Shown piece after piece: positions 7,339-57,154 of a stretch of 64,000 bases of DNA (position 1 is its first letter; each line of letters opens with the position of its first letter). Source of the stretch: Prevotella sp. GTDB taxonomy: Bacteria > Bacteroidota > Bacteroidia > Bacteroidales > Bacteroidaceae. Made by a program: the position numbers and the translations under genes. The notes beneath the pieces were generated by a model, which was given only the letters and a program-made list of their open reading frames with translations, searched no databases and had not been told where the DNA came from. Location of the stretch: assembly GCA_016285075.1 (NCBI GenBank), contig JAEEQB010000013.1, forward strand, positions 24,142 through 88,141, given 5' to 3'.

Positions 7339-8988
7339 ATGGGAGAAATGAGTGTTCAGCAAATCGTGGAGCAGTGCCAACAGGGCAATCGCGAAGCGTT
7401 CGGCCTGCTCTATACCGCCATGCAGGAGCGACTACGCAAAGTATGCCGTCGCTACGTGGCGAATGAAGCTGCTGCCGCTGATTTGCTGCACGACGCTTTC
7501 CTGCTCATCTTCAGTAAGATCGGCACGCTGAGGAACACTGCCAAGGCTGAGCAATGGATGATGACGGTGACCAAGAACCTGTCGCTGATGTATCTGAAGC
7601 AGCACAAACAGGAAACCATGGTGAGCCTCGACACCATGCAGCGGCAGATGTCGGTCACGGATGCTCCCGTCGCCCAGGACTCGCTGCTGACGAGTGGGGT
7701 GGACGAACTGCCTCTCACCTACGATGAACTGATGCGTTTAGTGGAAAGCTTGCCCCAAGGCTACCGTAACGTGTTCCGCCTGTCAGTCCTTGAGGGGCTG
7801 AGCCACCAGCAGATTGCCACCCTACTCCACATCGAGCCCAGCACCTCCTCTTCACAGCTGTTCCGTGCCAAGAGCATACTGCGCCATGCGCTCAGCGTCC
7901 TGATTATCGTGGCGTTGCTCCTGGTACTGCCGTTGGCATACCTGTGGAGGGAGAAAGCGACGACAGACACATCGTCTACGGAAAACAGGACGCAGAGCAC
8001 AGGACGTACAGCGCAAGCCAACAGTGGCAGCGGTGGGAACGGTCTGTCGGCAGCTGTAGCGACCTTGGACGACTCTTCCAGAGCTGTAGCCTCCACCTCT
8101 ACACCTTTCCGTGGCCACTCCGTACCCACAGCAATTGAGCGGGAACCTCTTGATGGTTCTGCTGCCTCTCAAGCACAGGGCGACAGTGTCCACACGGAGG
8201 TAGCTGCCACAAGCGTAGATAACAACACCCCCACACAGGCCGAGGACCAGCAGGAACGCACTCTGAAAGAGTTCCCCACTACTCAACAGTTGCCTCCATC
8301 ATCCATCACCCAACACCCATCACCCGACACATGGCTCCTCGCTATGTCCTACAGCGGCATGGGTGGCAACGGCAGTCCCCATCTGCCATTCGCCACCGAT
8401 GAGACCAACGCTGAGGTGCAGGCTGACGAGGCTCGTCACCACTTACCACTGACCATCGGTCTCAGTGTGAGCTATGCACTCACCTCTAACACCCATCACC
8501 CATCACCTAACACCTGGCTCCTCACTACCGGCTTGCAATATATGCGTATGACCTCTGATCTGGCTACGGGTAACACCTACGCCTCGTTCACCCGTCAGCA
8601 GCGCGTGCAGTACTTGGGCATTCCACTGACCCTCACTTGGCAAAAGCCTCTCTCTTGGCTACAAAGCGCTGATGGCCGCAGTCGTCTCAGTGTATACGGC
8701 TCTGTAGGGATGGGGGTGCACCTGCCCTTGCACTCTAAGGTGGAAGGTAGCTACCTCGTAGAGAACCACGCCGTCGATCCTTACAGCGAGCGGCTCCATC
8801 CTGGCGTGATGTGGTCAGCAGGCATAGGCATGGGCATGCAGTACCATGTGACTCCTGCCATCAGCTTCTTCGTGGAACCCAGCCTACAGCACTATTTCCA
8901 CAAGGACAATGGCGTTGACACCTGGCTCACCGAGCACCCTGTCTCCTTGACCGTGCCCCTCGGCATCAGAATAAAGGTAAATAAGTGA
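7339..8988 (+). CDS. Sigma-70 (ECF-type) factor fused through a TM helix to an outer-membrane beta-barrel domain
   Basis: Sigma region 2 (LLHDAFLLIFSKIGTLRN...EQWMMTVTKNLSLMYLK) and region 4 (LPQGYRNVFRLSVLEGLSHQQIATLLHIEPSTSSSQLFRAKSILRHAL), then TM VLIIVALLLVLPLAYLW, linker, and barrel-like C-terminus (FFVEPSLQHYFH...LTVPLGIRIKV). Confidence 0.85.
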   Translation: MGEMSVQQIVEQCQQGNREAFGLLYTAMQERLRKVCRRYVANEAAAADLLHDAFLLIFSKIGTLRNTAKAEQWMMTVTKNLSLMYLKQHKQETMVSLDTMQRQMSVTDAPVAQDSLLTSGVDELPLTYDELMRLVESLPQGYRNVFRLSVLEGLSHQQIATLLHIEPSTSSSQLFRAKSILRHALSVLIIVALLLVLPLAYLWREKATTDTSSTENRTQSTGRTAQANSGSGGNGLSAAVATLDDSSRAVASTSTPFRGHSVPTAIEREPLDGSAASQAQGDSVHTEVAATSVDNNTPTQAEDQQERTLKEFPTTQQLPPSSITQHPSPDTWLLAMSYSGMGGNGSPHLPFATDETNAEVQADEARHHLPLTIGLSVSYALTSNTHHPSPNTWLLTTGLQYMRMTSDLATGNTYASFTRQQRVQYLGIPLTLTWQKPLSWLQSADGRSRLSVYGSVGMGVHLPLHSKVEGSYLVENHAVDPYSERLHPGVMWSAGIGMGMQYHVTPAISFFVEPSLQHYFHKDNGVDTWLTEHPVSLTVPLGIRIKVNK

Positions 8989-11726: not shown

Positions 11727-12842
11727 TCAAAACGACTGGTCAGGCTGATGGTGACGGGCAGGACGACGGAGGCGGAGAAGGAGCCAGACCACCACACCCA
11801 GGAGCAGCAATGCTCCCACACAGGCGATGGTCAGTAGGCGTGAATAGCGTGCCTGGCTGTCACTATATGCAGCCTCCAGGACATTTGCCACATATCGTAC
11901 CTGATAGCTGCGCAACCGGGGAAGGAACTCTGTGTTACATTTCTCGCAGAAACGTACATAGCGGTAAGCCCGGTCATAATCGCCATCCTCAGCCAGACGC
12001 TCTGCCAACATAAAGAGCGATGCCTGGTCGAAGACAGCACACTTGATGTCGGCAAGGGCAGAACGGCCCAGCCAGTAGCGCAACTGCTGGCTGTTGCCCA
12101 ACTTGTCGTAGACCACCGAACGATAGAAGGCTGCAAAGGCTTCTGAATGGGTGCCTTCTTCAACATGGCTGAGCCAGTTGTCGCTGATGCCGAGCGCATC
12201 CTGATAGAGCTGGCGTGCACAGAACACATCCATCTTCAAGTGCAGGTACTCCTCACTGCCCTTCTCGGCTACCATGAGCACGGAGTCGCGGTAGCTGTCC
12301 TGCTGGGCATAATAGCTTTGGCGTACGTCGGGCTGCTGGGAGGAGGAGCCAATCTCACCGCAGACGTGCATCCAAGCCCCGTAATAGTTGGTCAGTTCCT
12401 TGGGGCCAAGAGCACTTTTGTCAACCCTCTTCAGCAAATCGAGCGCTTCCAAGTGCAGACCGGCATTGGAACATTGGTGAGCCTTTCTTGAGAGATATAA
12501 CCCCTCAATGTCTTTCCGGTGGAGTGAGTCAGCAAGCGAGATGCACATTCCTGCATAATAGAGTGCAGAGTCGTTGCGATAGGCATGATAGAGATCGAAA
12601 AGCCGCTCGGCCAGAGCCAGTCTTTTTTCCATACTCTGTTCTGACTGAAGCTGTTTGTACGAATCGGCTATCTCTTCCAGTCGTTTGGAGACAAACTGCG
12701 GAGATTGTTCGATAGCCTGGTCTATCTGCTGATAGAGCGCCTGAAGGTCTATCTCTTGATCATGTTTTTGCGCCGACAACGGGTAGCCTGCTCCGATGGC
12801 CACCCACAGAATAATCAGTATAGTCGTTCTCATCATCCTCAT
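11727..12842 (-). CDS. TPR-type membrane protein, possibly truncated DUF6377-like regulator
   Basis: Signal peptide, helical repeats, TM LLTIACVGALLLLGVVVWLLLRL, then only about 15 residues before the stop. Confidence 0.6.
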   Translation of the reverse strand: MRMMRTTILIILWVAIGAGYPLSAQKHDQEIDLQALYQQIDQAIEQSPQFVSKRLEEIADSYKQLQSEQSMEKRLALAERLFDLYHAYRNDSALYYAGMCISLADSLHRKDIEGLYLSRKAHQCSNAGLHLEALDLLKRVDKSALGPKELTNYYGAWMHVCGEIGSSSQQPDVRQSYYAQQDSYRDSVLMVAEKGSEEYLHLKMDVFCARQLYQDALGISDNWLSHVEEGTHSEAFAAFYRSVVYDKLGNSQQLRYWLGRSALADIKCAVFDQASLFMLAERLAEDGDYDRAYRYVRFCEKCNTEFLPRLRSYQVRYVANVLEAAYSDSQARYSRLLTIACVGALLLLGVVVWLLLRLRRPARHHQPDQSF

Positions 12843-12855
12843 TGTATTATGGAAC

Positions 12856-14514
12856 CTATTTCCCTGAATCTTTCCTTCGGATTTCCACGCGGCGTATCTT
12901 TCCGCTGATGGTCTTGGGCAGTTCGTCTACAAATTCCACGATGCGTGGGTACTTGTAGGGTGCTGTTTCGCGTTTGACGTGCTGCTGGAGCTCCTTAACA
13001 AGGTCGTCGCCAGCTTTGTCCTTCCATTCCTTTCCCAACACGACGGTGGCCTTGACCACCATGCCGCGGATATCGTCGGGAACGCCGGTGATGGCGCACT
13101 CCACCACAGCCGGATGGGTCATAAGGGCACTCTCTACCTCGAACGGGCCGATGCGGTAGCCCGACGATTTGATGACATCATCGATACGCCCTTCGAACCA
13201 GTAGTATCCATCCTCATCACGCCAGGCCATGTCACCCGTGTGATAAAGACCATCGTGCCAGGCCTCACGTGTCAACTCCGGGTCACGGTAATACTGCTTG
13301 AACAGACCGATGGGTTTGCTGTCGCCCACACGCACCACAATCTCGCCTTTCTCACCATCCTCGCACGAAGTGCCATCGGCACGGATGAGATCGATGTCGT
13401 ATTGGGCGTTGGGAATACCCATGGAACCTGGCTTGGGGGTCATCCAAGGGAAGGTGCCGAGAGTCATGGTGGTCTCGGTCTGTCCGAATCCTTCCATCAT
13501 GCGAATGCCTGTCTTCTCATAGAACTTCTCGTAGACTGCTGGGTTGAGGGCCTCGCCTGCAGTACAGCAGTATTCGAGCGAAGAGAGGTCGTAGCGAGAC
13601 AGGTCTTCTCGGATCATGAAACGATAGATGGTAGGCGGTGCACAGAACGAGGTGACATGGTATTTCTCCATCTGACGCAACAGGGTATCGGCGTTGAACT
13701 TCTCGTGGTCGAACACGAATACCGTTGCTCCGGCAAACCACTGGCCGTAGAACTTTCCCCAGACGGCCTTGCCCCAGCCCGTATCGGCCACGGTGAGATG
13801 GAGCGAGCCTTTATGCAGGTTGTGCCAGAAAACGCCTGTGGTGAGGTGTCCCATGGCATAGAGGTAGTCGTGAGCCACCATTTTGGGCTCGCCACTGGTG
13901 CCACTGGTAAAATACATCAGCATCGTGTCGTCGTTTTCGTTGACGAAAGCAGGACGCACAAACTGAGGTGCCTGGTCTATCTCGTTCAAATAGTCATGGA
14001 AGCCCTCGGGAATGTCATTTCCTATTGCAATGTACTGGGTGACAGTAGGGCTCTCTGCCTTTGCCAACTGGATCTGCCCGGTCACATAGGGATCGTCTAC
14101 GCAGATGATAGCCTTGACCGAGGCACGGGTGTTGCGATAGACGATGTCGTGCTTGGTGAGCATGTGGGTGGCGGGAATGACGATGGCTCCGATCTTGCAG
14201 AGGGCGAGCATGACGACCCACCATTCATAGCGTCGCTTCAGGATCAGCATCACGGGGTCGTTCTTGCCGATGCCAAGTGTCTGCAGATAGGAAGCAGCCT
14301 GGTCGGTCTGTTCCTTCAGCTGGGCAAAAGTGGTACGTATCTCTTCCCCTTGGTCGTTGGTCCACAGAATGGCCAGCCGATGAGGGTCTTCCTCTGCCCA
14401 GGCATCCATCACGTCATAGGCAAAGTTGAAGTTCTCGGGTATGATGAACTCCAGGTTCTTGTTGTAGTCCTCTACAGACTCGAAATGGGTCTGCTTTAAA
14501 AATCTTTCTACCAT
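12856..14514 (-). CDS. AMP-binding acyl-CoA synthetase
   Basis: MLMYFTSGTSGEPKMVAHDY, GFGQTETT, YHTGDMAWRDEDGYYWFEGRIDDVIKSSGYRIGPFEVES, PKTISGKIRRVEIR. Confidence 0.92.
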   Translation of the reverse strand: MVERFLKQTHFESVEDYNKNLEFIIPENFNFAYDVMDAWAEEDPHRLAILWTNDQGEEIRTTFAQLKEQTDQAASYLQTLGIGKNDPVMLILKRRYEWWVVMLALCKIGAIVIPATHMLTKHDIVYRNTRASVKAIICVDDPYVTGQIQLAKAESPTVTQYIAIGNDIPEGFHDYLNEIDQAPQFVRPAFVNENDDTMLMYFTSGTSGEPKMVAHDYLYAMGHLTTGVFWHNLHKGSLHLTVADTGWGKAVWGKFYGQWFAGATVFVFDHEKFNADTLLRQMEKYHVTSFCAPPTIYRFMIREDLSRYDLSSLEYCCTAGEALNPAVYEKFYEKTGIRMMEGFGQTETTMTLGTFPWMTPKPGSMGIPNAQYDIDLIRADGTSCEDGEKGEIVVRVGDSKPIGLFKQYYRDPELTREAWHDGLYHTGDMAWRDEDGYYWFEGRIDDVIKSSGYRIGPFEVESALMTHPAVVECAITGVPDDIRGMVVKATVVLGKEWKDKAGDDLVKELQQHVKRETAPYKYPRIVEFVDELPKTISGKIRRVEIRRKDSGK

Positions 14515-14525
14515 ATGAGTAAAGT

Positions 14526-14665
14526 AAAAGTGATAAGTGAATAGTGAAAAATTTGCTTCCGCACTTCTTGCTATTCATCCTTTCTTCTTTATCTTGTTAA
14601 ACTATATTTATTCTCGCACAGGAACAGCGGTAGCAAATTATTCACTTTTCACTATTCACTTTTCC
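14526..14665. repeat. Short ORF-less inverted-repeat element
   Basis: Arms 14526-14562 (AAAAGTGATAAGTGAATAGTGAAAAATTTGCTTCCGC) and 14627-14665 (GCGGTAGCAAATTATTCACTTTTCACTATTCACTTTTCC) are near reverse complements. Confidence 0.85.
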
Positions 14666-14671
14666 CTAATA

Positions 14672-15229
14672 TTATTCAACGGTGAAGGCAAGGAACCTGA
14701 CGGCCTTCTCGCCCACAGCCAGCATGCCGTGGGGCTTGGTGGAGTCGAAATAGATGCTGTCACCCTCTTCAAGCACGATGGTCTTTCCACCGATGTAGAG
14801 TTCCATCTTACCCTCAAGCACCAGGTTGAACTCCTGGCCAGGGTGTGAGTTCTTGTAGATGGTGCGTGCGCCCGGCTTGGGTTCCACGGTGACAATGAAC
14901 ACGTCGGCCTTGTGACCCACAAAACCGCCCACTAGGCTCTGATACTTGTAAGCCTTGGTGCGCTCAATGGACATGCCTTGTCCCTTGCGAGTGACGTAGT
15001 ACGACTTCATGTGGGGCGACTCCGCAAAGATGATCTCCTCGGTAGACACTCCATACTTATGGGCAATCTTCATCAGGTTCGAGATGGTGATGTCGAGTTC
15101 GCCACGCTCTATTTTCTCATATTTCTCCGCATCGATGCCGATGGTCTCTGCCATCTCACTCACGGGGATATCGAGCACGTCGCGCAGTCCGCGCAACCGT
15201 TCACCTATTTGCTTTAATTGTTCGTCCAT
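14672..15229 (-). CDS. XRE-family regulator with C-terminal cupin domain
   Basis: N-terminal HTH (LRGLRDVLDIPVSEMAETIGIDAEKYEKIERGELDITISNLMKIAHKYGV), cupin (PGQEFNLVLEGKMELYIGGKTIVLEEGDSIYFDSTKPHGM). Confidence 0.9.
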   Translation of the reverse strand: MDEQLKQIGERLRGLRDVLDIPVSEMAETIGIDAEKYEKIERGELDITISNLMKIAHKYGVSTEEIIFAESPHMKSYYVTRKGQGMSIERTKAYKYQSLVGGFVGHKADVFIVTVEPKPGARTIYKNSHPGQEFNLVLEGKMELYIGGKTIVLEEGDSIYFDSTKPHGMLAVGEKAVRFLAFTVE

Positions 15230-15246
15230 AATCTTTTTTTAAAGGT

Positions 15247-15712
15247 AAAAGTGAATAGTGAATAGTGAAAAATTTGCTTCCGCCGTCCCTGTTCACTTCT
15301 TTTCATTGTTCTGTTTTGTTGTTTTTATTGATGATATCAGGAGTGCAAGCAGTTCTTGACAGTCTTTGCTCAAACTCTCGAATTCTTGTTCATTCAGATA
15401 TTCAGTATCCCGAAGGATATTAAGCCAATAGTTGGTCTCATTGCATTCTTTCAAGGCAACCGACAATTTGTTGATGAAATCTGCCGGGCTTTGTGCGTAT
15501 GTCGCCTCACTCACCAGTGCACCAATGGCTGTCCCTGACCGGAAAACCTGATTAATCATCCCGTATTCCTTCGGACTGCACGTCATGGACTTTACCATTT
15601 TTACAATCCTTATTCCGAAAAGATAGCTTTTCTTTGTAAGGGGGGAGCTGTTATACTGGAGGTATGACATAGCGCGGTAGCAAATTATTCACTTTTCACT
15701 ATTCACTTTTCC
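15247..15712. mobile_element. Inverted-repeat-bounded cassette carrying a four-helix-bundle gene (putative)
   Basis: Arms 15247-15283 and 15674-15712, same sequences as the 14526-14665 element, enclosing almost exactly one ORF. Confidence 0.6.
15293..15670 (-). CDS. Four-helix-bundle protein (23S rRNA intervening-sequence protein / Avd-like)
   Basis: 125 aa helical protein: SYLFGIRIVKMVKSM...GMINQVFRSGTAIGALVSEATYAQSPADFINKLSVALKECNETNYWLNIL, matching the TIGR02436-type pattern as recalled. Confidence 0.8.
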   Translation of the reverse strand: MSYLQYNSSPLTKKSYLFGIRIVKMVKSMTCSPKEYGMINQVFRSGTAIGALVSEATYAQSPADFINKLSVALKECNETNYWLNILRDTEYLNEQEFESLSKDCQELLALLISSIKTTKQNNEKK

Positions 15713-15713
15713 C

Positions 15714-16997
15714 TTATATCTTGTCCAATGCTTGCTTGATGTCTTCGAGGATATCCTCCACGTCTTCTATGCCTACGGAAAGGCGGATGAGGTCGGGAGC
15801 CACACCAGCCTCGCGCAACTGCTCGTCGGAGAGCTGACGATGGGTATGGCTGGCAGGATGAAGCACACAGGTGCGGGCATCAGCCACATGAGTCACAATG
15901 TTGATCATCTCCAACGAGTCCATCCACTTGATAGCTGTCTCACGGGTTCCCTTCAGGCCGAAGGCAATCACGCCGCATGAGCCGTTGGGCAGATATTTCC
16001 GCCCCAGGTCATAGCACCTGTCGCTGGGCAGTCCGCAGTAGTGTACCCACGCCACTTTCTCGTTCTGGCTCAGGAACTCGGCCACCTGCTGGGCATTCTT
16101 GCAATGCTGCGCCATACGCAGGTGAAGCGTCTGCAGACCAAGGTTCAGCAGGAAAGAGTTCTGGGGAGCGGGTATGGAGCCGAGGTCGCGCATCAGTTGG
16201 GCGACGAGCTTCGTGCAATAGCCTTTCTTGCCGAAGGCTTTCACATAGGTCAGTCCATGGTAAGACTCATCAGGAGTGGTGAGACCGGGGAACTTCTCGG
16301 CATGTGCAAGCCAGTCAAAGTTGCCACTGTCTACTACGCAGCCACCCACCTGAGTAGCCAAACCGTCCATGTACTTCGTGGTGGAATGGGTCACGATGTC
16401 AGCTCCCCACTCAAACGGGCGGCAGTTGATAGGTGTTGCAAAGGTATTGTCGACGATCAGGGGAACCCCATTCCTATGGGCTATGCGGGCAAACTTCTCT
16501 ATGTCCAACACAGCGCAGCCGGGGTTGGAGATGGTCTCGCCGAAGAGAGCCTTCGTATTGGGACGGAAAGCTGCCTGTATCTCCTCCTCGGATGCATCTT
16601 GCGAGATGAAAGTACTCTCAATGCCAAGTTTCTTCAGGGTGACACCAAACAGATTGTAGGTACCGCCATAGATCTCATTGGAGGTGACGAAGTGGTCACC
16701 ACTCTCACAGATATTGAAAATGGCATAGAAATTGGCAGCCTGGCCCGAGGACGTCAGCACAGCCCCTACTCCGCCCTCGAGGGCAGCAATCTTCTCTGCC
16801 ACAGCATCGTTTGTGGGGTTCTGCAGGCGGGTATAGAAATAGCCCTCCTTCTCCAAGTCAAACAACTTTGCCATCTCGTCCGAGTCATCATACTTGAAGG
16901 TAGTCGACTGGATAATCGGCAACTCTATCGGTTCTCCGTTTTTGGCCTTATAGCCTGCCTGTACGCAGAGCGAGCCCTGCTTTAGTCTCTTTTCCAT
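15714..16997 (-). CDS. O-acetylhomoserine aminocarboxypropyltransferase (Cys/Met metabolism PLP enzyme)
   Basis: MEKRLKQGSLCVQAGYKAKNGEPIELPIIQSTTF, YTRLQNPTNDAVAEKIAALEGG, VTHSTTKYMDGLATQVGG; start trimmed to 16997. Confidence 0.88.
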   Translation of the reverse strand: MEKRLKQGSLCVQAGYKAKNGEPIELPIIQSTTFKYDDSDEMAKLFDLEKEGYFYTRLQNPTNDAVAEKIAALEGGVGAVLTSSGQAANFYAIFNICESGDHFVTSNEIYGGTYNLFGVTLKKLGIESTFISQDASEEEIQAAFRPNTKALFGETISNPGCAVLDIEKFARIAHRNGVPLIVDNTFATPINCRPFEWGADIVTHSTTKYMDGLATQVGGCVVDSGNFDWLAHAEKFPGLTTPDESYHGLTYVKAFGKKGYCTKLVAQLMRDLGSIPAPQNSFLLNLGLQTLHLRMAQHCKNAQQVAEFLSQNEKVAWVHYCGLPSDRCYDLGRKYLPNGSCGVIAFGLKGTRETAIKWMDSLEMINIVTHVADARTCVLHPASHTHRQLSDEQLREAGVAPDLIRLSVGIEDVEDILEDIKQALDKI

Positions 16998-17024
16998 GTA
17001 TTGTCGTTTTTTGCAATTTGGGTG

Positions 17025-17032
17025 CAAAGTTA
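17025..17032 (-). promoter_or_regulatory. -7 box TAACTTTG
   Basis: caaagtta on + strand, 28 nt upstream of the PLP enzyme start. Confidence 0.5.
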
Positions 17033-17120
17033 CTAAAAAAAACAAAAAAAGAGAATTGCAAAGAAAAAAAATAACTGTCGCCAATACAAATAATGCGACA
17101 GCTGCCGATACAAGGCAACA

Positions 17121-17159
17121 AAAAAAAACGGTCAGTCCCCTGAAAACGGCGACTGACCG
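17121..17159 (-). terminator. Terminator of small heat-shock gene
   Basis: CGGTCAGTC / GACTGACCG stem followed on the minus strand by a run of T. Confidence 0.8.
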
Positions 17160-17186
17160 GGAAGTCTGTCTAATGACAGTGAATGG

Positions 17187-17612
17187 TTACCCGATATTGA
17201 TCTGGCGGCTCACTTTCACCTTCTCTACCACCACCTTGGGCAGCTCGACAGTCAGCACACCATTCTCGACCTTGGCAGAAATCTTCTCCTTGTCCACATC
17301 ATCGGGCAAAATCAGCGTCTGCTCATACTTCGTGAAAGAGAACTCACGGCGCAGGTAGCGGACGCTCTTGTCCTCCTCCTTCTGCTCCTGCTTCTGCTCC
17401 ATCTTGATGATGAGGTTACCCTCGTCGTTGATGTGCACATTGAAGTCCTCTTTCTTCATGCCTGGTGCAGCCAGCTCGACAGTATAGCCTGTTGCCGACT
17501 CCTTCACGTTGATGGCTGGAGCGGTGGCGCTCATCTTCGGCATGAAATCTGTGTTAAACAAGTCGTTGAACACGGCGGGAATCCAGTTGTTTGTTCTCAT
17601 CATAGGTGTCAT
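17187..17612 (-). CDS. Hsp20/alpha-crystallin small heat-shock protein
   Basis: YTVELAAPGMKKEDFNVHINDEGNLIIK ... KISAKVENGVLTVELPK. Confidence 0.93.
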   Translation of the reverse strand: MTPMMRTNNWIPAVFNDLFNTDFMPKMSATAPAINVKESATGYTVELAAPGMKKEDFNVHINDEGNLIIKMEQKQEQKEEDKSVRYLRREFSFTKYEQTLILPDDVDKEKISAKVENGVLTVELPKVVVEKVKVSRQINIG

Positions 17613-17772
17613 AATCTTTACCTCCTAATTCTGTTTTTATTTGTTGTTTGTATGTTTGATTTACCAATGAATGTCTCATTGTTCGCTAACTATCAAGCAA
17701 CAAAAATGCCAAAGCACATTCTCATGACAAAATGACAGAACCAACCGACAAACTGTCACACCTCACATTGAA

Positions 17773-17834
17773 CATTCCTCATTTCTCATTCCTCATTTAT
17801 CATTTATCATTTATCATTTAGGCCGAAGGCCGCC
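17773..17834. repeat. Heptamer array with terminal GGCCGAAGGCC hairpin
   Basis: CATTCCT CATTTCT CATTCCT CATTTAT x3 CATTTA then GGCCGAAGGCCGCC; overlaps the mfd stop codon. Confidence 0.9.
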
Positions 17835-20800
17835 AATCCTCATCAGCACTTTCACGGCATCCTCAACACTAGGCACATCGTCCACCACCATGGAACGCTT
17901 TGTCCCGCCATTGGGCGCAGTGGTCTCACGCAAGTTGCATTGCCGTACGTTCTGCGTGGCGAAAGTGATGATTCTACCGAAGACGGGGCTCTGGTAGTAA
18001 GGGCTATCGGCACGACTCACGAAATAGAGGAACATACGGCCTTGTTTCAGCATGATTTTCTCACATCCCAGTTGCTTGCCCAAGATGCGTAGCGGTACGA
18101 CCTGCAACAGTTCCTCAGCCTGAGAAGGCAGTTTCCCGAACCGGTCACGCAACCGCTGGCGGTAGGCATCCAGCTGCTGCAGGGCGGTATCCAGATCGGG
18201 ACGGTTGCCTATGTTGTCCAGTTCGCGATAGAGCAGCATGCGCTCGGAATCGCTCGGCACGTAGAGGTCGGGGAAGAACATTTCCAGGTCGCTTTCCAAG
18301 GAGCAGTCGGAAACGAATACTTGCGGGACATGGGAGGTGGGATGTAAACCGAGGCTACTATCCGCAACGGATTCTGCAACAGTGCTGTTCTCATTCCACG
18401 ACTTGTCATTCTTCAGTTCTGCCATTGCCTCGTTCAGTATCTTCACATACGTCTCATAACCCAGGTCGCTGATGAATCCCGACTGCTCGGCTCCCAACAG
18501 ATTGCCTGCGCCGCGTATGTCGAGGTCTTGCATGGCTATGTTGATGCCCGAGCCCAGATCGCTGAAGTTCTCCAGTGCCTCCAGACGGCGACGTGCATCC
18601 TGGGGCAATGCTGACAAGGGCGGGGCCAACAGGTAGCAGAACGCCTTGCGGTTGCCACGCCCCACACGTCCCCGCATCTGGTGCAAGTCGCTCAGTCCGA
18701 AGTTCTGTGCGCCGTTGATGATGATGGTGTTTGCATTAGGAATGTCTATACCATTCTCCACGATGGTGGTAGAGAGCAGCACATCATAGTCGTAGTTCGA
18801 GAAGTCAAGCACCACCTGTTCCAGTTCCTCGGGTTTCATCCTGCCGTGACCAACAGCTATGCGCGCATCGGGTATGTACTTATGAATCATCTCGGCCAGA
18901 TGAGTCAGGTCGGAGATACGGTTGTTCACGAAATACACCTGTCCGTTGCGCGACATCTCGAAGTTGATGGCCTCGGCAATGATATCGGCCGAGAATGTAT
19001 GTATCTCTGTCTGAATAGGATAGCGGTTGGGAGGTGGCGTCTGTATCACGCTGAAGTCGCGAGCACCCACCAGCGAGAACTGCAACGTACGCGGTATGGG
19101 TGTGGCGCTCATGGTCAGGGTATCTACATTGGTCTTCAACTGACGCAGTTTCTCCTTGGTCGACACACCGAACTTCTGCTCCTCATCAATGATCAGCAGT
19201 CCCAGGTCGTGGAACTTCACCGTCTTGCCAATGAGTTTGTGCGTACCTATTAATATATCTATCTTGCCTGACTCCAGGTCTTTCAGTATCTGGGTGGTTT
19301 GTTTCGCCGAACGGGCGCGGCTCAGGTACTCCACTCTTACCGGCATATCCTTGAGTCGCCCAGAGAAAGTCCTGAAATGCTGATAAGCAAGCACGGTCGT
19401 CGGTACCAGCACAGCCGTCTGCTTGCCATCGACAGCGGCCTTGAAAGCGGCACGGACAGCCACCTCGGTCTTGCCGAAACCCACATCGCCACATACCAGT
19501 CGATCCATCGGGCGAGATCGTTCCATATCGGCCTTCACATCTTGTGTGGCCTTTAGCTGGTCGGGGGTGTCCTCATACACAAACGATGCCTCCAGTTCAT
19601 GTTGAAGATAACTGTCACGACTGAAGGCAAAGCCCTTCTCACGTCGACGGGCAGCATAGAGGCGTATGAGGTCACGCGCTATATCCTTAATGTGGTTCTT
19701 CGTACGTTCCTTCAGCCGTTCCCACTGGCCCGTACCCAAAGTTGACAGACGCGGAGCCTCACCACCCTCTTGCGACTTGTATTTCGACACCTTATAGAGC
19801 GAGTGAATGCTCACGTAGATAGCATCGCCACGCTGATAGGTAATCTTGATCATCTCCTGATATTGGGGAGAGGAAGTAGGATTGTTAGGGTTGGAAGACT
19901 GTATGGGCATACGCACTAGTCCGCCGAAACGCCCCACACCATGATCCACGTGTACCACAAAGTCACCCACTTCAAACTGCTGTATCTCTTTCAGCGTCAG
20001 TGCCATCTTGCCACTACGCGCCTTGTCGCTCTTCAGATTGTACTTATGGAAACGGTCAAATATCTGGTGGTCGGTAAACAGGCAGAGCCGCAGGTCATGG
20101 TCGATGAACCCCTCATGCAGCGTCTTGTCAACAGGGGTAAAAAGGCTCGGTTCTCCTTCCTCCCTGTTACTCACCCCCTCCAGGATCTCCTGTAATCGCT
20201 CGTTCTGCTTCTGGCTGTCGGCCAATACAAACAGTCTATAGCCTTTCAGACGATAGTCTTCCATTGTCTTGGCCAACAGCTCAAAGTTCTTATGGAACAA
20301 GGGCTGAGGACTCATGGAGAAACTGATGGTGTTTGCCTCGCTCCGAGGCTGGGTCTCAATGCGCCTGAACTGTTCCACCTCTTTGGCAAACTGGGTGCCC
20401 GTGGTCAGCTGACTCTCACGCCTCATCTGCTGTTCTATCACCTGCTGCTCCTGCTCATCGGCATTCTCCATCCGTTCACGAATAGCCTGTGACGAGAATC
20501 CCTCCTCGTACGTATGCTCTATAGCGTCACGCACAAAGCCGAAATTCTTCATCACCAGTACCGTGTCCTTCGGCAGGAAGGTTAGAAGCGAGACACGCTC
20601 CTGCTCGTAAGCCATCTCAGGCACCACCTCTACGCGGTCACGACGGTCACGCGACAGCTGGTTCTCAACCTCAAACGTACGGATGGAGTCTATCTCGTCA
20701 CCGAAGAAGTCCACTCGGTATGGATATTCGCAGCTGTAGCTATATACATCGAGTATGCTGCCACGGAGTGCATACTGGCCTGGCTCATAGACATAGTCCA

Positions 20801-57126: not shown

Positions 57127-57154
57127 TTAATTATTAATTCTTAATTGTTAATTG
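57127..57154. repeat. Heptamer array between rplJ and rplL
   Basis: TTAATTA TTAATTC TTAATTG TTAATTG. Confidence 0.85.

Follow-up and report, generated by a model that had tools for sequence, protein, structure and literature searches.

A putative miniature inverted-repeat element related to an IVP gene cassette in the intergenic DNA of Prevotella sp.

Intervening sequences (IVSs) of the 23S rRNA have been known since 1990. Those of Leptospira, Coxiella and Xanthomonas with the S23/IVP open reading frame (ORF; PF05635, TIGR02436) are about 430-480 bp long, carry the ORF in an inverted-repeat stem and occur sporadically. In the Coxiella IVS, tandem heptamers lie ahead of the ORF (PMC4990558), and IVP ORFs are also reported from rRNA insertions of bacteria of the candidate phyla radiation (PMC11270868). 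Among IVP relatives, the solved structures are pentamers built of four-helix bundles, and there is a resemblance between the family and Avd (PMC10053308). Here we analyse a 64,000-nucleotide stretch of Prevotella sp. DNA (contig JAEEQB010000013.1, hereafter the window), in which a 150-bp hairpin without an ORF lies one gene away from an element that bears an IVP gene. The hairpin is probably a non-autonomous member, resembling a miniature inverted-repeat transposable element (MITE), of a family of small mobile cassettes, which in their full form would consist of one IVP gene between terminal inverted repeats of 7-8-bp units.

Like the 23S rRNA IVSs, the full window element has its ORF framed by complementary, stem-forming ends. 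Unlike them, the window elements lie between protein-coding genes and not inside a 23S rRNA gene, their arms consist of tandem arrays whose 7-8-bp unit is specific to the element, and they have dispersed ORF-less relatives. The short ORF-less form shares with MITEs the long terminal inverted repeats, common to a gene-bearing partner in the same genome, and the presence at many sites, but the partner gene encodes IVP instead of a recognised transposase, no target-site duplication is evident by eye, and the heptamer-array repeats drift in concert. Intergenic hairpins that are dispersed and linked to a single gene family are also known from the repetitive extragenic palindromes and bacterial interspersed mosaic elements (REP/BIME) with RAYT (TnpA-REP), and the IVP fold is homologous to Avd of the diversity-generating retroelements. 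In contrast to these two systems, this genome (97.7% complete) has no match to a Y1 transposase (PF01797) or to a reverse transcriptase (PF00078), nor is there a template/variable repeat; RAYT or a reverse transcriptase as the genome-encoded mover was rejected for the lack of these matches. The cyanobacterial and Beggiatoaceae heptamer repeats (TAACTGA) are likewise intergenic, tandem and long unexplained, but they are direct and of a single unit, and a link to IVP is not made in the searched part of the text (PMC4679880).

The IVP protein and the 23S insertions are already known. The intergenic cassettes with matched tandem-repeat arms and their ORF-less relatives appear to be new, as no earlier description was found in the literature searched, which did not extend to subscription journals and preprints. 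Where IVP was searched for in combination with flanking tandem repeats, the paper on the Coxiella IVS (PMC4990558) was the only hit.

The ORF-less hairpin and its IVP-bearing partner

A preliminary description of the window had pointed to a 140-bp arm-framed stretch without an ORF at 14526-14665. The stretch is real, and its limits were refined to 150 bp. The two elements have the following features:

14520-14669, minus strand: ORF-less element, 150 bp, filling the gap between the XRE-cupin and acyl-CoA synthetase genes
14627-14669, minus strand: upstream-type arm of the ORF-less element, TTAGGGAAAAGTGAATAGTGAAAAGTGAATAATTTGCTACCGC, heptamers plus the core GCTACCGC
14563-14626, minus strand: interior of the ORF-less element, 64 bp, A-rich, without an ORF
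14520-14562, plus strand: downstream-type arm of the ORF-less element, TAAAGTAAAAGTGATAAGTGAATAGTGAAAAATTTGCTTCCGC, with the core GCTTCCGC
15242-15716, minus strand: full IVP-bearing element, filling the gap between the metY-like and XRE-cupin genes
15674-15716, minus strand: upstream-type arm of the full element; its outer TAA doubles as the stop codon of the metY-like gene
15293-15670, minus strand: IVP gene, 125 aa, with matches to PF05635 and TIGR02436
15242-15283, plus strand: downstream-type arm of the full element

The ORF-less element is a hairpin of 43-nt heptamer arms around an interior of 64 bp, the length given earlier. The heptamer unit is GTGAAWA, and each arm ends in a core, TTTGCTACCGC in one arm and TTTGCTTCCGC in the other. 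That the arms are essentially those of the neighbouring element was borne out, with 98% identity between the right arms (14627-14672 and 15674-15719) and 93% between the left arms (14521-14562 and 15242-15283). Within the window, core-plus-heptamer patterns were restricted to these two elements, and none of 100 shuffled sequences matched. There is no credible ORF in 14520-14669; a 103-aa frame of the plus strand (14537-14848) reads antisense into the cupin gene. RNA folding gave -47.7 kcal/mol for the ORF-less element (z -7.2 against shuffles) and -142.4 kcal/mol for the region of the full element (z -5.4), and an Rfam scan of window positions 12000-18000 gave no match. The window IVP protein scored above the curated cut-offs of both hidden Markov models, with 87.9 bits against 33.8 for PF05635 and 99.2 against 24 for TIGR02436, and its nearest solved structure is 2rld, which has five chains.

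Dispersed copies and empty sites

The subfamily was searched for in 399 congeneric genomes, with the reversed pattern as the control. In the genome of the window itself, the core-plus-heptamer pattern had 20 matches and the control one; paired arms belonged to the two window elements and to a second hairpin, located on contig C16 (60285-60356), and the remaining matches were single. Close relatives of the window IVP were present as 23 full copies in 23 genomes, one per genome at the threshold used, and occupied about ten loci, including lutB/lutC, proC/cupin and cupin/acs. The termini were identical throughout, with the constant sequences TAAGGGAAAAGTG...TTTGCTACCGC and GCGGAAGCAAA...CACTTTTACCTTA. 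Short ORF-less copies numbered 32, in 21 genomes and at over twenty loci, with no match to the reversed pattern. All 30 short copies that were fetched had the heptamer arms, and their within-element arm complementarity was better than in all 5000 permutations. The tree of the full copies has 11 locus changes. Repeated hits at one site were tested by way of the monophyly of the lutBC copies, which was not rejected (p = 0.24).

These dispersed copies bear on the possibility, raised in the preliminary description, that the arms occur only here or are locally grown heptamer arrays. Slippage would then have made the arms in place, and the likeness of the two gaps would come from a local duplication. 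The arms do vary in unit number, and period-7/8 arrays are common in this genome, with 24 in a 464-kb sample and none in shuffled sequence. Since other species have this core and these termini at about ten loci with a full copy and at over twenty with an ORF-less one, local growth is refuted for this subfamily, and as a general account of the elements we regard it as extremely improbable.

An alignment of the interiors had been proposed as a test for an internal deletion of the IVP gene. No such deletion was detected for the window copy, whose 64-bp interior aligned to five IVP genes no better than shuffles did, and direct descent of this interior from the IVP ORF was set aside. Its 3' end is common to ORF-less copies at other loci. 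Seven A-rich interiors from five or more loci agree in this end, with a mean pair score of 6.0 compared with 0.04 (sd 0.66), and the A-rich interiors as a family show a weak likeness to the 3' tail of IVP (1.37 against -0.35, sd 0.2). From the common 3' end and the likeness to the IVP tail, the ORF-less form is a dispersed subfamily of its own, and its ancestors were probably full copies.

All four genes and both elements of the region are on the minus strand, in tight gaps. The neighbouring genes are:

12856-14514, minus strand: acyl-CoA synthetase gene (acs), the start of which borders the ORF-less element, with the cupin stop on the other side
14672-15229, minus strand: XRE-cupin gene, between both elements, a flanking gene and not part of an element
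15714-17084, minus strand: metY-like gene, the stop codon of which overlaps the outer TAA of the full element

As had been proposed, both copies occupy the whole gaps on either side of the XRE-cupin gene. The cupin/acs gap measures 3-20 bp in 29 of 45 species, and in two other species (genomes G177 and G347) it has a full IVP copy at the insertion point of the ORF-less window copy. The lutB/lutC gap is empty in several relatives. At three loci (cupin/acs, L357/L319 and L363/L332-L334), species differ in the form present, with an ORF-less copy in one and a full copy in another. In genome G089 (L213) the IVP gene has lost its N-terminal half between two intact arms, genome G060 carries a full copy next to the cupin gene as well as a single arm one gene away, and at lutBC of the window's own genome one arm remains, preceded by an apparent IVP gene end of a few codons fused to lutB. 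An arm-mediated loss of proC beside the cupin gene found no support, as proC was found on contig C27 without an arm. Several species have unrelated arrays in the cupin/acs gap, which makes this gap a favoured target as well. The unrelated sequences there are octamer arrays or CGTGATAA-type mini-hairpins (L198, L208, L204, L206, L207, L209 and L063).

The elements fill gaps directly after stop codons, their hairpins are stable on folding and some ORF-less copies lie between convergent genes. All this would be expected of attenuators or terminators between operon genes that were copied by recombination, with IVP as a passenger. However, the stem is not followed by a T-run as in an intrinsic terminator, and most relatives lack an insert in these gaps. 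Together with the framing of IVP genes described below, which other ORFs lack, this makes a regulatory origin very unlikely.

Several related sequences were observed in addition. Core-like sequence with (CTTCACT)n occurs inside the coding frame of paralogous genes (L146, L157 and L164, around 1501), where the protein reads SSLFTLHSSLFTLHS; from their sequence, these paralogues may be caspase/legumain-like genes. In the window, unpaired period-7 arrays lie in gaps or gene ends at 17773-17820, 38720-38749, 39609-39638, 57127-57154 and 8295-8325. A further ORF-less inverted pair is found at 35441-35728, with (TAAATGA)n at 35451-35482 and (TCATTTA)n from 35591 onwards, about 108 bp apart, and 3' of it are two 46-bp direct copies containing GACCGAAGGTCGCATCA. 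Several tandem repeats with a 22-bp period are found in one region (43280-43898 and 46334-46402).

Matched arrays around IVP genes

The flanks of 91 IVP loci from 60 Bacteroidales relatives were compared, with mismatched flank pairs as the null. An inverted match above 99% of the null was found at 57 of the 91 loci and at none of 77 control ORFs, whereas a match in direct orientation was found at 8 loci. Arrays grown in place would not account for this preference for the inverted orientation. The mean array period was equal on both sides at 55 of the 57 loci, with 7 bp at 35 and 8 bp at 17 of them. Across phyla, 41 of 78 IVP loci exceeded the 99% level (controls 0/85). For named genomes outside the Bacteroidota, 30 of 40 loci were above the 95% level and 19 above the 99% level, compared to one and none of 52 controls; framed loci were found in Chloroflexota, Geobacter, Patescibacteria, Clostridia, Fibrobacter and an ANME-1 archaeon, among others.

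The repeat unit varies from locus to locus and matches between both arms of one element. The more alike two IVP sequences are, the more alike are their arms (Mantel r = 0.41, 0/2000), and this holds between different genomic sites too. Arms were common to 64% of the IVP pairs with at least 65% identity in different contexts and to 0.4% of the pairs below 35%.

Individual loci add to this picture of variation. The second IVP gene of the Prevotella genome (L301, 15783-16223) has TGAGAAAW octamer arms, and a single TGAGAAAW array about 1.7 kb away (L301, 14093-14127) echoes the layout of the window. Cassettes with differing arm units occupy one gap in several species (L026-L030, L033, L035 and L038), which presumably separates the A and B genes of a fumarate reductase/succinate dehydrogenase. 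At L025 (1000-1800), a longer IVP-like protein with a 240-aa frame lies between the inverted 9-bp arrays TTGTTAGGG and CCTAATCAC.

In 54 of 62 cases, the genes on both sides of an IVP cassette are co-directional and the cassette has their sense. This arrangement and the strong predicted RNA hairpins of both window elements would fit an mRNA counterpart of the 23S rRNA IVS, in which the arms pair in the polycistronic transcript, RNase III cleaves the stem and excision makes the insert tolerable, the spread being rare and passive. The short ORF-less copies, however, are found outside operons too, with only 13 of 23 between co-directional genes and some between convergent ones. Nor are the arm mismatches biased to wobble pairs of the sense RNA (316 versus 437 the other way, a count confounded by the A-rich sense strand), and wobble as proof of an RNA stem was rejected. 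An mRNA counterpart would also leave unexplained why the arms follow the IVP sequence between different sites. We consider this explanation unlikely, although it deserves more weight than local growth or a regulatory origin.

A candidate family of mobile hairpins

A small mobile cassette family, with the ORF-less window element as its MITE-like member, is the probable explanation. It is carried by what the sequence comparisons revealed: dispersed full and empty copies, termini constant within the subfamily, empty sites in relatives, element-specific matched arms, and arms that follow IVP across sites. The preliminary description had proposed an autonomous/non-autonomous couple. The MITE-like part of this proposal is largely supported by the dispersed full and ORF-less copies and the empty sites, whereas the term autonomous is unproven, as IVP is no recognised transposase.

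For the mechanism, we suggest that the arms, in a hairpin that may be a cruciform, single-stranded DNA or a transcript, offer a row of binding sites, and that the IVP pentamer would recognise the unit repeated in the arms of its own element. Such recognition could drive or guide the movement of the whole cassette into short gaps beside stop codons, and arm pairs that have lost the gene would be moved likewise. Slippage and copying between the arms would allow the unit to drift without the two arms diverging. Catalysis may be supplied by the host.

Several observations weigh against a mobile cassette family. No transposase, nuclease or target-site duplication was found; for the latter, empty and filled lutBC and cupin/acs sites were compared by eye, and their flanks are AT-rich and diverged. 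To our knowledge, IVP has no enzymatic activity and is not a known transposase. The tree would fit a single insertion at each locus with vertical inheritance thereafter, and movement may therefore be infrequent. The majority of the arrays in the 464-kb sample are single and unpaired, and arrays thus exist outside cassettes too. About a quarter to a third of the IVP loci have no clear arms at the sensitivity used, and the interior of the window copy by itself is not detectably IVP-like.

A wider proposal, which we put forward tentatively and hold to be less likely than not to be correct in full, is that IVP is the specificity protein of an unrecognised class of transposase-less mobile hairpins across bacteria and archaea. 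Protein and arms would share a lineage-specific language of 7-8-bp repeats, MITE-like swarms would derive from them, and the 23S IVSs would be members that landed in rRNA.

The origin of the IVP/S23 protein and its role in the 23S IVSs have been open for decades, and its mobility has so far been conjecture (PMC4990558). With matched, element-specific arrays regularly framing the IVP genes and arms that follow the protein, this becomes a recognition system that can be tested. Some, at least, of the heptamer arrays that have lacked an explanation in the intergenic DNA of the Bacteroidota may also stem from IVP cassettes.
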